Assembly (NCBI RefSeq): GCF_004320535.1 | Contig: NZ_SIHY01000003.1 | Location: forward strand, 186,001 to 250,000 | Direction: 5' to 3' | Length of the DNA: 64,000 nt | Source: Arthrobacter sp. S41 | GTDB taxonomy: Bacteria; Actinomycetota; Actinomycetes; Actinomycetales; Micrococcaceae | Shown: positions 26,161-47,493 of the stretch, in pieces | Numbering within the stretch: the stretch's first letter is position 1 | How the letters are laid out: every line of letters begins with the position of its first letter | Position numbers and translations under genes: made by a program | Notes under the pieces: model-generated | Seen by the model: the letters and a program-made list of their open reading frames with translations, nothing else | What the model was told of the DNA's origin: nothing | Databases searched by the model: none

Positions 26161-26218
26161 TTCTTCACGAGGAAATCCTGTCTTTAAACAGACTTTCCCG
26201 TCGCGAAGTGAAAGTACT

Positions 26219-26302
26219 CCATCGGTCCTGGCTGTAGCACCGCTCCCTTACGGGTGGTTGCTGCGACGTCGTTGAGCCAGATCTCTCAGTCGCTCTGGAT
26301 GG
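26219..26302 (-). promoter_or_regulatory. SAM riboswitch (S-box) upstream of metN
   Basis: On the minus strand P1 (CCATC...GATGG) encloses the S-box core: AGAGC, then CTGAGAGATCTGGCTC, GCAGCAACC and GGTGCTAC, in the correct order and spacing. Near-copies occur at 32391-32476, 32750-32846 and 47284-47371, all before sulfur genes. High SAM should turn metNIQ off. About 90 leader bases separate it from metN and include other short hairpins, for example around GTCTGTTTAAAGAC. Confidence 0.88.
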
Positions 26303-26535
26303 TGTGTGTTCGGTTGTACGGTCCGAACGATTTAAGTCTGTCTTCCATGGCCATGACCGAACAATAATTACGTAAACGGAAGTCATGAAGTCACCAAAAC
26401 TTACTCACAACGTCAAAAAATTGCTTTGGTCTGCGTAGCAATTCTTCACTTTCCTCAAAGGTTTCGAATCAAGACGACGACCCTTGACGTATTGATTCCC
26501 CTTTTGGTTTCATGCGCACGACTGACCGTCGGGAA

Positions 26536-32372: not shown

Positions 32373-32390
32373 TGAAGTCCTCAATTCTTT

Positions 32391-32476
32391 CCATCGGTCC
32401 TGGCGGTAGCACCGTCCCGCGATTCGGGTGGTTGCTGCGGCGTCGTCGAGCCAGATCTCTCAGCCGCTCTGGATGG
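32391..32476 (-). promoter_or_regulatory. SAM riboswitch (S-box) upstream of the DszC/DszA copy 2 pair
   Basis: Minus-strand aptamer with P1 CCATC...GATGG, AGAGCGGCTGAGAGATCTGG, GCAGCAACC and GGTGCTACCGCC. It ends only 18 bases before the ATG at 32372. Here the Shine-Dalgarno GAGGAC is outside P1 and I find no obvious anti-ribosome-site sequence in the aptamer, so the switching mechanism is not evident. Confidence 0.88.
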
Positions 32477-32709
32477 GTTGTCATTCATTTGTAGCCGTAA
32501 CAAAGCAATCATTCCAAGCCACGAAGTCACATTTCATTGTTCAGACCAGGTGGCTTGACAGTTGCGTTGCACAGTCAATGACGCGTCATATCGAAGATGA
32601 CTTGGCAAGAATCCCCAACTATCGATTAAACAGCCTTCTAATGAAATAAATAACGAAATAACCCGCGCATGTGACGTAGTTATCGAAGATTTTTCATGTT
32701 ACGCAAGAT

Positions 32710-32739
32710 TTGCTTTCAAATCGTTCGAAAGCCTGTAAT
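32710..32739 (+). promoter_or_regulatory. Promoter of the ssu operon
   Basis: TTGCTT and TGTAAT are 18 bases apart. Transcription would begin around 32746, just before the aptamer at 32750. The AAATCGTTCG sequence inside the spacer recurs at the same distance before the metN aptamer. Confidence 0.45.
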
Positions 32740-32749
32740 GGACACGTAA

Positions 32750-32846
32750 CCATCCCGAGCGGCCGAGAGATCTGGCTCAGTGACGCCGCAGCAACCACCT
32801 ATGGATGACACACTCCATAGGCCGGTGCTACCGCCAGGACCGATGG
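32750..32846 (+). promoter_or_regulatory. SAM riboswitch (S-box) upstream of ssuB with ribosome site in P1
   Basis: P1 pairs CCATC (32750-32754) with GATGG (32842-32846). Between lie CCGAGAGATCTGGCTC, GCAGCAACC, a strong hairpin arm CCTATGG...CCATAGG and GGTGCTACCGCC. The GG of GATGG is the first half of GGAG (32845-32848), the only ribosome site for the ATG at 32855. Forming P1 with SAM bound should therefore block translation directly. Confidence 0.9.
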
Positions 32847-32854
32847 AGATGATC

Positions 32855-33664
32855 ATGGCTCTTAGCCTTGCACTGCCTCAAGCGCACACCTCGACCGCTT
32901 TAGACGTGGAATTCAGCAATGTTTCGCGCACCTTCACCACCAAAAGTGAAAGCCGCGCGGTCCTCAGCGATATCAACTTGCAGATCCCCGCGGGCCAAGT
33001 TGTTGCGATCCTTGGTGCTAGCGGCTGCGGCAAGTCCACACTGCTTCGCGCGGTCTCCGGGTTGGACCAACCATCCACCGGATCCATCCGTACCGGAAAA
33101 CGCAACGTAGATGGCATCAACGAACTATGTGCGGTCGCATTTCAGGAACCACGACTACTACCGTGGCGATCGGTCCGAGAAAATATCGCTTTGGGCCTCG
33201 CGCCAGGTACCAGCAAGGCCGACGGTGCTGAACTGATTGATGAATTAATCGAGCTGACCGGGCTCAGCCACGCGACAGATCTTCGCCCGCGCGAAATTTC
33301 AGGTGGTATGGCTCAGCGCGTCTCGCTGGCTCGTGCCTTGGCACGGCGCCCTGGAGTGCTGCTACTTGATGAACCCTTCGGCGCACTGGACGCTTTGACG
33401 CGGCTGAAAATGCAAGATCTATTGCTCTCCATCCATGCTTCCTTCCCCACCACAATTCTTATGGTCACCCACGACGTGGACGAGGCGTTGACCTTGGCTG
33501 ACCGAGTCATCGTCCTGGGACGTGAGGGTCAAGATACCGCGGCCACCGTCATTAAAGAACTCTCAATGAGCGCTTCTCATCCTCGCAAACACAACGAAGA
33601 TCAGTTCATCGCTCACCGCGCAGGATTGCTTCGACTTCTTGGTGTGGACCCGACTAACCATTGA
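32855..33664 (+). CDS. ssuB: Sulfonate/taurine-type ABC transporter ATPase (SsuB-like)
   Basis: ABC ATPase with Walker A GASGCGKS, signature ISGGMAQRVSLARALA, Walker B VLLLDEPFGALDAL and switch His in VTHDVDEALTLADR, the SsuB/TauB pattern. The frame is open from 32780, but those codons lie inside the riboswitch; ATG 32855 has GGAG six bases upstream, so the protein is 269 residues. It powers SsuC and SsuA. Order ATPase, binding protein, permease, then an acyl-CoA synthetase, all on one strand with short gaps. Confidence 0.9.
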   Translation: MALSLALPQAHTSTALDVEFSNVSRTFTTKSESRAVLSDINLQIPAGQVVAILGASGCGKSTLLRAVSGLDQPSTGSIRTGKRNVDGINELCAVAFQEPRLLPWRSVRENIALGLAPGTSKADGAELIDELIELTGLSHATDLRPREISGGMAQRVSLARALARRPGVLLLDEPFGALDALTRLKMQDLLLSIHASFPTTILMVTHDVDEALTLADRVIVLGREGQDTAATVIKELSMSASHPRKHNEDQFIAHRAGLLRLLGVDPTNH

Positions 33665-33745: not shown

Positions 33746-34768
33746 ATGCTTTCGCACCGCTTCACTCGACGTACCGCACTTGCCACCGCAGCACTGTTGA
33801 TCGGGGCTACTGCCCTGACCGGTTGCGCCGGAGAAAACGCTACGGCCTCAGGATCAGATAAGACCCTGTCCATTGACTTCGCCACCTACAACCCGCTGAG
33901 CCTGGTCATCAAAGAAAAAGGTTGGCTCGACGACGCCGCTAAGGATCAAGGCGTCAAGGTGGAATGGGTTCAGTCCGCTGGCTCTAACAAGGCCAATGAA
34001 GCATTACGTGCTGACGCAGTGAATGTTGGCTCCACCGCAGGATCCGCCGCTTTGTTAGCCCGGTCCAACGGTTCACCGATCAAGACTATCGACCTGTATT
34101 CGCAGCCAGAATGGGCCGCTCTGGTGGTTGCTAAGGACTCCAAGATCAAATCGGTGAAAGACCTCAAGGGCAAAACTGTGGCCGCCACCAAAGGCACCGA
34201 TCCTTACTTCTTCCTGCTTCAAGCACTAGAGCAGGCAGGTCTGAGCGAAAAGGACATCACCGTACAGAATCTGCAACACGCGGACGGTCGTACCGCGTTG
34301 GTCAACGGTTCGGTTGACGCTTGGAGCGGACTAGATCCCATCATGGCCGCAGCCGAACAAGACGGTGCGAAGCTGCTGTATCGCAACCTAGATTTCAACA
34401 CCTACGGTGCACTTAATGCTCGCGAAGACTTCATCAAGCAGAGCCCCGAACTAGCCCAGCTGGTCGTTGACTCCTACGAGAAAGCACGCGAATGGTCGGG
34501 CAAGCATCCAGAAGAGACCGCCAAGATCTTGGCTGATGTTGCCGGTCTAGATCCTAAGGTTGCCACCACTGTCATCGAAGAACGTTCCAACTTGGACGTA
34601 TCGGCCGTTCCCGGAACCGAGTACACCAAAGTCTTGAAGACTATCGCGCCCACCTTGGTCGCCAGCGGCGATGTCTCCAAGCAGGAATCCGTAGACGAGG
34701 CCCTAGCAACTTTGGTTGATGACCAATTTGCTACCAAAGCTGACCCAACCAAAATTTCCGGAGAGTAG
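33746..34768 (+). CDS. ssuA: Sulfonate-type ABC transporter substrate-binding lipoprotein (SsuA-like)
   Basis: A 340-residue binding lipoprotein: Arg-rich signal peptide and lipobox ALTGC. LSIDFATYNPLSLVIKEKGW, VNVGSTAGSAALLARSNGSP and VAATKGTDPYFFLLQALEQA are typical of SsuA/TauA proteins that bind alkyl sulfonates. GAGG lies before the ATG. The exact ligand (alkanesulfonate, taurine, another sulfonate) cannot be read. Confidence 0.88.
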   Translation: MLSHRFTRRTALATAALLIGATALTGCAGENATASGSDKTLSIDFATYNPLSLVIKEKGWLDDAAKDQGVKVEWVQSAGSNKANEALRADAVNVGSTAGSAALLARSNGSPIKTIDLYSQPEWAALVVAKDSKIKSVKDLKGKTVAATKGTDPYFFLLQALEQAGLSEKDITVQNLQHADGRTALVNGSVDAWSGLDPIMAAAEQDGAKLLYRNLDFNTYGALNAREDFIKQSPELAQLVVDSYEKAREWSGKHPEETAKILADVAGLDPKVATTVIEERSNLDVSAVPGTEYTKVLKTIAPTLVASGDVSKQESVDEALATLVDDQFATKADPTKISGE

Positions 34769-34774
34769 TCAGCA

Positions 34775-35587
34775 ATGAGCACCACCGTCTCCACGAGAAA
34801 TCCGAAGAAGGCTAAATCCGGAGTCTCTGCCACCATCTTGCGCGCTCCACACTGGTTGTTATCCCTGATCTTGCCGGTTATTGTTCTGGTGATCTGGCAG
34901 GTCGTGACGTCCACTGGAATCGTCGCTCCTTGGACTTTGCCCACCCCCACTTCTGTAGTCACTTCAGCAGTTGAGCTATTGCGTGACGGAGATCTTGGCA
35001 AACACATTGGCATTTCCACGCAACGTGTATTGCTTGGATTCTTCTTTGGTTCCTTGCTCGGTCTACTGCTTGGCGCACTGGTCGGCCTGTCCAAATTGGC
35101 TGATGCTCTGTTGGGTTTGAGCATTAGTGCGTTGCGTGCGGTGCCATCCTTAGCATGGGTCCCGCTGCTGGTGCTGTGGATGAAAATGGGTGAAGACTCC
35201 AAAGTCACCCTAGTGATCATTGGTGCATTCTTCCCCGTCTTCACCACCGTGGCCTTGGCTCTTCGTCATGTGGATGCCCAGCTGGTAGAAGCCGCCCGAT
35301 CTTTCGGGCTGAACGGAATCAAGTTGCTGCGTACGGTGCAGCTTCCTGCGGTGGTGCCTTCGATTTTCTCCGGGCTGCGCCTAGCCCTAGCGCAGTCTTG
35401 GCTCTTCCTTGTTGCCGCTGAATTACTCGGCGCTTCGATGGGTCTGGGCTTCCTGCTGACTGATTCGCAGAACAACGGCCGACTGGACCGACTGATCATG
35501 ACCATCATCTTGTTGGCCATCTTCGGAAAAATTACCGACGCCCTGCTCTCGATAGCAGAACGCTGGGCCATTAAACGTTGGACCTAA
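34775..35587 (+). CDS. ssuC: Sulfonate-type ABC transporter permease (SsuC-like)
   Basis: A 270-residue permease of about six helices. LRAVPSLAWVPLLVLWMKMG and the EAA loop AARSFGLNGIKLLRTVQLP followed by GLRLALAQSWLFLVAAELLG are the SsuC pattern. Its ribosome site GGAGAG overlaps the end of ssuA. The next gene follows after 62 bases. Confidence 0.9.
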   Translation: MSTTVSTRNPKKAKSGVSATILRAPHWLLSLILPVIVLVIWQVVTSTGIVAPWTLPTPTSVVTSAVELLRDGDLGKHIGISTQRVLLGFFFGSLLGLLLGALVGLSKLADALLGLSISALRAVPSLAWVPLLVLWMKMGEDSKVTLVIIGAFFPVFTTVALALRHVDAQLVEAARSFGLNGIKLLRTVQLPAVVPSIFSGLRLALAQSWLFLVAAELLGASMGLGFLLTDSQNNGRLDRLIMTIILLAIFGKITDALLSIAERWAIKRWT

Positions 35588-47169: not shown

Positions 47170-47283
47170 GACTCAAGCGTACCGGGGTGCATAGATATCG
47201 AAGAATCTCCGATATTACGTCTAATACGCAACGTTACGACTCATAGTTAGGTCACGATCGGTCATGTTGCGAAGATTATTACA

Positions 47284-47371
47284 CCATCCCGAGCGGCTGA
47301 GAGATCTGGTTCGATGAAGCCGCAGCAACCTGCCACATCCGGTGGTTACGGTGCTACCGCCAGAAACGATG
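47284..47371 (+). promoter_or_regulatory. SAM riboswitch (S-box) upstream of metY
   Basis: P1 CCATC...GATG with core GAGCGGCTGAGAGATCTGG, GATGAAGCCGCAGCAACC, CGGTGGTTACGGTGCTACCGCC. It is the copy closest to the S-box consensus, with GATGAAGCC. About 120 further leader bases carry two hairpins (CGCTT..CTTGTT with AACAAGAAGCG at about 47376-47405, and CACCGCTGAGCGGTG near 47440) before metY. Confidence 0.9.
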
Positions 47372-47493
47372 CAGCCGCTTTTCTTGTTTAATCACAACAA
47401 GAAGCGACATTGATTCCGGGATTCCTGCCTCGATCGCACCACCGCTGAGCGGTGAAACGCGAAAACCCAATCGACAAGGAGTCGTAAGCCATC

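Follow-up and report, generated by a model that had tools for sequence, protein, structure and literature searches.

The leader of ssuB in Arthrobacter sp. S41 carries a SAM-I (S-box) riboswitch that very likely acts directly on the ribosome-binding site, shutting off translation of ssuB, and thereby the ssuBAC operon for sulfonate uptake, when SAM is abundant. All coordinates refer to the window, that is, the whole 64,000-nucleotide stretch of DNA that was analyzed. The 3′ strand of the predicted P1 helix holds the GG of the putative Shine-Dalgarno sequence GGAG of ssuB, with the start codon 8 nt past the helix. With SAM bound, P1 would be locked and the folded aptamer would occupy the landing site of the ribosome; without SAM, the 5-bp P1 would open easily and the 30S subunit could bind. 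As only half of the Shine-Dalgarno sequence is paired in P1, the block probably does not come from burying all four bases. More probably, the SAM-clamped P1 and the aptamer together fill the 30S landing area. We infer three things about this leader, namely that it binds SAM, that P1 opens in the absence of SAM, and that control is translational rather than transcriptional.

An earlier note, made from the letters of the sequence, had placed a SAM riboswitch ahead of ssuB, and a covariance-model search with RF00162 confirmed this. The aptamer spans 32747-32849 (+ strand) and scored 54.2 bits (E = 1.1e-9), above the gathering score of 44.4 bits, with full coverage of the model (positions 1-108). 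P1 is formed by CCATC at 32750-32754 and GATGG at 32842-32846 (both + strand and read directly from the sequence, the 3′ strand also being paired in the consensus fold); these positions, as well as those of GGAG (32845-32848) and ATG (32855-32857), were exact in the earlier note. The helix consists of five uninterrupted pairs, and the two next outward positions are mismatched in the Rfam alignment. The core carries GCAACC, GGTGC.A, the pseudoknot elements CTGG (in L2) and CCAG, and AU pairs within P1. In SAM-I aptamers, AU pairs inside P1 contact SAM. The core shows no departure from the RF00162 model, and P3 has a 9-nt insert relative to it.

The gene behind the aptamer, ssuB (32855-33664, + strand), codes for the ATP-binding protein (269 aa) of a sulfonate/nitrate-type ABC transporter. 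Its best NCBIfam matches, PRK11247 (2.7e-62, 210 bits, cut-off 395) and ntrCD, were both below cut-off, and the name ssuB was chosen partly because the next gene is ssuA. The latter (33746-34768, + strand) encodes an aliphatic sulfonate substrate-binding protein (TIGR01728 SsuA_fam, 230.3 bits, cut-off 163.5), and is followed by a gene for an ssuC-like permease (34775-35587, + strand; PRK11365, 1.7e-52, below cut-off) and, after ssuC in the window, by an acetate-CoA ligase gene.

Six nucleotides separate the GGAG at 32845-32848 (+ strand) from the ATG at 32855-32857 (+ strand), and the first two bases of GGAG are inside P1. The genome contains the anti-Shine-Dalgarno tail GGATCACCTCCTTTCT, and the duplex of GGAG with the anti-Shine-Dalgarno sequence was calculated at about -6.8 kcal/mol. 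Only G32845 and G32846 are paired in P1, A32847 and G32848 being just outside, and the consensus fold of 18 relatives likewise pairs only the GG. The claim that P1 contains the ribosome site of ssuB needs correcting in that the helix holds the GG, and the AG is beyond it. The last P1 pair is 8 nt from the ATG.

In order to follow the site through the genus, which for this genome is Glutamicibacter, we used 18 genomes, the present one included; Arthrobacter arilaitensis is now named Glutamicibacter arilaitensis. In total, 116 RF00162 hits were obtained at E ≤ 0.001, 110 of them over the gathering score, and the six below it were kept in all counts, none being dropped. An RF00162 aptamer with the same geometry of P1, Shine-Dalgarno sequence and start was found at the ssuB locus in all 18 genomes, with CCATC/GATGGAGA and the ATG retained in each. 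CTGG in L2 and CCAG before P1 were also present in 18/18. The pairing strands CCATC/GATGG are invariant at this locus, so that no covariation supporting P1 was found there within the genus. The spacing from GGAG to ATG is 6 nt in 15 genomes and 7 nt in three, and the linker between them varies in sequence and length. Arthrobacter sp. MYb213 carries the same site. Automatic start choice missed the ATG of the locus in six of the 18 genomes, the frame there being too short, and the start that it placed at -7 in G017 was spurious; the site clusters, built by single linkage, mix paralogues and served only to sort sites.

Within the 400 nt that were read, 11 genomes keep an open ssuB frame, and in the other seven (G002, G004, G006, G007, G013, G014, and G016) the frame ends early; the riboswitch, the ribosome site and the ATG persist in all seven. 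This loss of the ssuB body speaks against the direct reading, as do the pairing in P1 of just two of the four Shine-Dalgarno bases and the lack of covariation in P1. The loci of these seven genomes with a lost ssuB body are L037, L044, L052, L057, L081, L084, and L093. In five of the seven (all except G006 and G007), the next frame picked was an acetate-CoA ligase-like gene.

The earlier suggestion that the switch needs no extra hairpin agrees with the consensus fold of the 18 leaders, which contains no separate conserved sequestor: when the leaders were folded with 60 nt of following sequence, no conserved helix past P1 took up the Shine-Dalgarno sequence, and no base pair was seen 3′ of GGAG. 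The consensus fold of the 11 leaders with an open ssuB gave the same picture, placing the GG in P1 and leaving the sequence 3′ of GGAG unpaired. A scan of 32480-33000 detected no site resembling an intrinsic terminator, shuffled sequences giving a mean of 0.6. In 15 of the 18 genomes (all but G003, G005, and G012), a TGTAAT box starts 13 nt ahead of the aptamer, and its position suggests that the transcript may begin at the first P1 bases. The box was recognized by conservation alone, a scan for sigma-70 consensus promoters having given no hit.

The lack of a terminator-like site leaves Rho open as a route of control, and leaders that are not translated are frequent targets of Rho or RNases in high-GC bacteria. 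A genuine aptamer might act mainly at the RNA level, with the untranslated message being terminated by Rho or attacked by RNases and the translation block being secondary. We regard this as unlikely, since such an effect would still stem from a translation block at GGAG, and since the fixed place of the start codon in 18/18 genomes needs a translational reason.

For the preferred reading, a direct block of translation by P1, the stability of the helix was calculated with ViennaRNA. In ligand-free folds of the 18 leaders, the mean P1 probability ranged from 0 to 0.85 and the cost of opening P1 from 0 to 3.5 kcal/mol; in several of them the GG of the Shine-Dalgarno sequence stays paired elsewhere once P1 is open. 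The leader has a folding z-score of -1.06. Constrained folds of the 12 direct sites, out of the 18, that were scored at the ssuB-locus start predicted a gain in Shine-Dalgarno access on opening of P1 at 10 of them (all but G009 and G012); some of this gain follows from the scoring itself, which counts P1 bases in its stretch. A marginally stable P1 would be as expected for a ligand-gated helix. It is possible, if somewhat doubtful, that the riboswitch works without any second RNA fold, with the 30S subunit itself competing with P1: as the transcript may begin with P1, the gene starts so close behind it and no further conserved helix follows, the 30S subunit would be the competitor of this helix. 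If so, SAM and the ribosome would compete directly for five base pairs, and the output would depend on ribosome supply besides SAM.

The overlap of P1 with GGAG is by itself expected in this genus, where most P1 3′ strands read GATGGAG (73 of the 116 RF00162 hits, and 55 of the 98 outside the ssuB locus). This invites the explanation that the overlap is a by-product of a common strand, that the nearby start is fortuitous, and that nothing is regulated through P1, a reading to which the 55 other riboswitches with GATGGAG and no ATG 5-9 nt after it lend some weight. We consider it very improbable: an ATG at this distance past GGAG was found in 0/55 of the other GATGGAG riboswitches vs. 18/18 at the ssuB locus, no other conserved Shine-Dalgarno sequence is present at that locus, and further genes and genera show this layout as well. 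GTG or TTG was found 5-9 nt past GGAG in three of the 55. Judged from sequence, the informative feature is the position of the start codon and not the GATGGAG overlap. The P1 strand of this genus often resembles a Shine-Dalgarno sequence, true or not, which is a trap when raw sequence is read, and the distance to the start codon must therefore be checked.

The merging of aptamer and ribosome site noted earlier is a conserved trait of the ssuB leader, seen in 18/18 genomes of the genus, and it also recurs in the family. Using one narrow sequence pattern, we identified 36 sites with the direct layout among 100 sampled Micrococcaceae genomes; they come from 28 of these genomes and from 15 of 32 genera, and five of the 36 belong to Glutamicibacter. 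Of the 30 family sites read, 27 have an open frame of 190 codons or longer that starts either at the ATG or, in the same frame, 6 nt ahead of it; the genes, assigned by eye, include ssuB-like, metN-like, metY-like, acs-like, and SfnB-like ones. Among named genomes, the same pattern matched at least 117 stretches. Among the matches listed, GCAACC occurred at most 110 nt upstream at 28 sites in 27 of 80 loci, and RF00162 was found in all 13 of the loci submitted to Rfam out of those 27 listed. One locus, from Kocuria rosea (L147), has RF00162 and the direct layout ahead of an ssuB-like gene. A search of 395 family genomes for the variant GATNRGAG returned 10 sites, all with GATGGGAG and with CCATC as the 5′ strand (10/10); at the level of sequence, these are evidence neither for nor against pairing in P1.

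GGAG had been described as the only Shine-Dalgarno candidate, which is nearly right: AGGA at 32836-32839 (+ strand) also matches the anti-Shine-Dalgarno sequence, but it is separated from the ATG at 32855 by 15 nt and is kept in 13/18 genomes vs. 18/18 for GGAG. That ssuB instead initiates at 32849 (or 32843), with AGGA rather than GGAG as its ribosome site, is hardly credible. AGGA does lie 9 nt before the ATG at 32849, and this codon is in frame in the present genome, but AGGA is broken in five of the 18 genomes, and the codon has no counterpart in G008 and G013 and an out-of-frame one in G001 and G002. An open ssuB is found both in G003 and G005, which are among the genomes with a broken AGGA, and in G001 and G008, which are among those without an in-frame ATG corresponding to 32849; the codon matching the ATG at 32843 has shifted out of frame in three genomes (G001, G002, and G013). 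Given the broken AGGA and the missing or out-of-frame rival ATGs, GGAG is likely the Shine-Dalgarno sequence and 32855 likely the start of ssuB.

Two further features of the ssuB leader were considered and rejected. CTCCAT in the P3 loop (32813-32818) is complementary to ATGGAG at 32843-32848 and could be taken for an anti-Shine-Dalgarno element, but the motif is not kept in the 18 relatives, among which the P3 sequence differs, and the match is put down to chance. A long frame that opens at GTG 32780 and crosses the aptamer is excluded as a conserved frame, since the aptamer lengths in the relatives (99-111 nt) differ by non-multiples of three.

The ssuB switch differs from the Firmicutes-type S-box in that no intrinsic terminator with a U run was found after the aptamer, and from translational S-box switches in that the consensus fold contains no separate sequestor hairpin. 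In riboswitches of the SAM-II, SAM-III (SMK), and preQ1-II type, the Shine-Dalgarno sequence lies inside the ligand-bound fold, so that ligand binding itself covers it, as is proposed here for ssuB; the aptamer folds are different. The closest likeness is to the SAM-I subclass of the riboswitches that act by direct translation attenuation (Barrick and Breaker 2007, PMC2258182). The passages of that paper on the direct class place the start codon within 15 nt of the conserved end of the aptamer and the ribosome-binding site in the 3′ side of P1, and describe this compact layout for actinobacteria. At ssuB, 5 nt separate the model end at 32849 from the ATG at 32855, and the GG of GGAG is in P1 with the AG just outside in 18/18 genomes. 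The two are thus alike in start distance, in the side of P1 that holds the ribosome-binding site and in their actinobacterial host, and no mechanistic difference was found relative to those passages. The main text of PMC2258182 contains no occurrence of Arthrobacter, and ssuB was not met in its passages on the direct class. Searches for literature on Glutamicibacter riboswitches, or on riboswitch together with ssuB and Arthrobacter, returned nothing on the subject by title. The kind of switch is already known, and the ssuB site is an added, well-conserved example that may be unreported as an individual site.

As an example of a direct SAM-I switch, the ssuB site is clean and minimal as well as well conserved. 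The met switch of Xanthomonas campestris resembles it in having a SAM-I aptamer and in acting mainly on translation, but passages of the study of that switch describe an expression-platform hairpin that sequesters the Shine-Dalgarno sequence and the AUG, the platform also sensing tRNA (PMC7270179); no such separate hairpin was seen at ssuB. As the experimental work in Xanthomonas, in those same passages, concerns a separate hairpin, the ssuB locus would lend itself well to bench work on the direct class.

The genome (3.47 Mb) contains five SAM-I riboswitches, four of which are located inside the window. The second of these (32388-32479, - strand; RF00162, 60.2 bits) precedes a divergent SfnB/DszC-like gene, for which the SfnB match of 257.7 bits was below the model cut-off. 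Its Shine-Dalgarno sequence GAGGA (32378-32382) lies 8 nt outside P1 and its start is the ATG at 32372-32370. Together with the ssuB switch (32747-32849, + strand), it forms a head-to-head SAM-I pair between the two genes, the first with the Shine-Dalgarno sequence outside P1 and the second with it half inside. Head-to-head SAM-I pairs also occur elsewhere in the family, e.g., at G107:C1:2247257-2247345 (- strand) and 2247625-2247713 (+ strand).

A metN-type riboswitch at 26216-26305 (- strand) has, by eye, the classical mutually exclusive layout. In this class CGCTCC appears, also by eye, complementary both to the GGAG of P1 and to the Shine-Dalgarno sequence GGAGCG (8/8 sites). The wider idea that the P1 GGAG mimics a Shine-Dalgarno sequence and pairs with a downstream CTCC in indirect switches is not supported across the genus: CTCC was present between P1 and the Shine-Dalgarno sequence in 27 of 53 indirect switches vs. 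22.1 expected from shuffles, two of the 55 being left out as having no start at least 40 nt away. The fourth riboswitch of the window (47281-47375, + strand) has GATGC as the P1 3′ strand, which loses one P1 pair and is found at nine sites of the genus, this one included; it has a separate Shine-Dalgarno sequence, AGGAGT, and possibly a hairpin after the aptamer (by eye).

A third direct-like class was observed in three of the 18 genomes (G007:C1:2814476, G014:C19:447216, and G015:C1:1053946). It has GATGGAAAGGTGGC, with the Shine-Dalgarno sequence abutting P1, and precedes a gene encoding MSSQTPDHILTTHAGSLPRT... or a similar sequence, methionine-synthase-like by eye. Direct-type SAM-I starts also open short Cys/Arg-rich frames, of 28 aa in Lentzea (L134, L137, L151, and L171) and of 27 aa in Rhodococcoides fascians (L176, 4486-4583), in each case ahead of a gene that by eye is metN-like or transporter-like. 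Here a cysteine leader peptide seems to be gated by a SAM switch, which would make a two-signal device, and such an arrangement would be more unusual than the ssuB switch itself.
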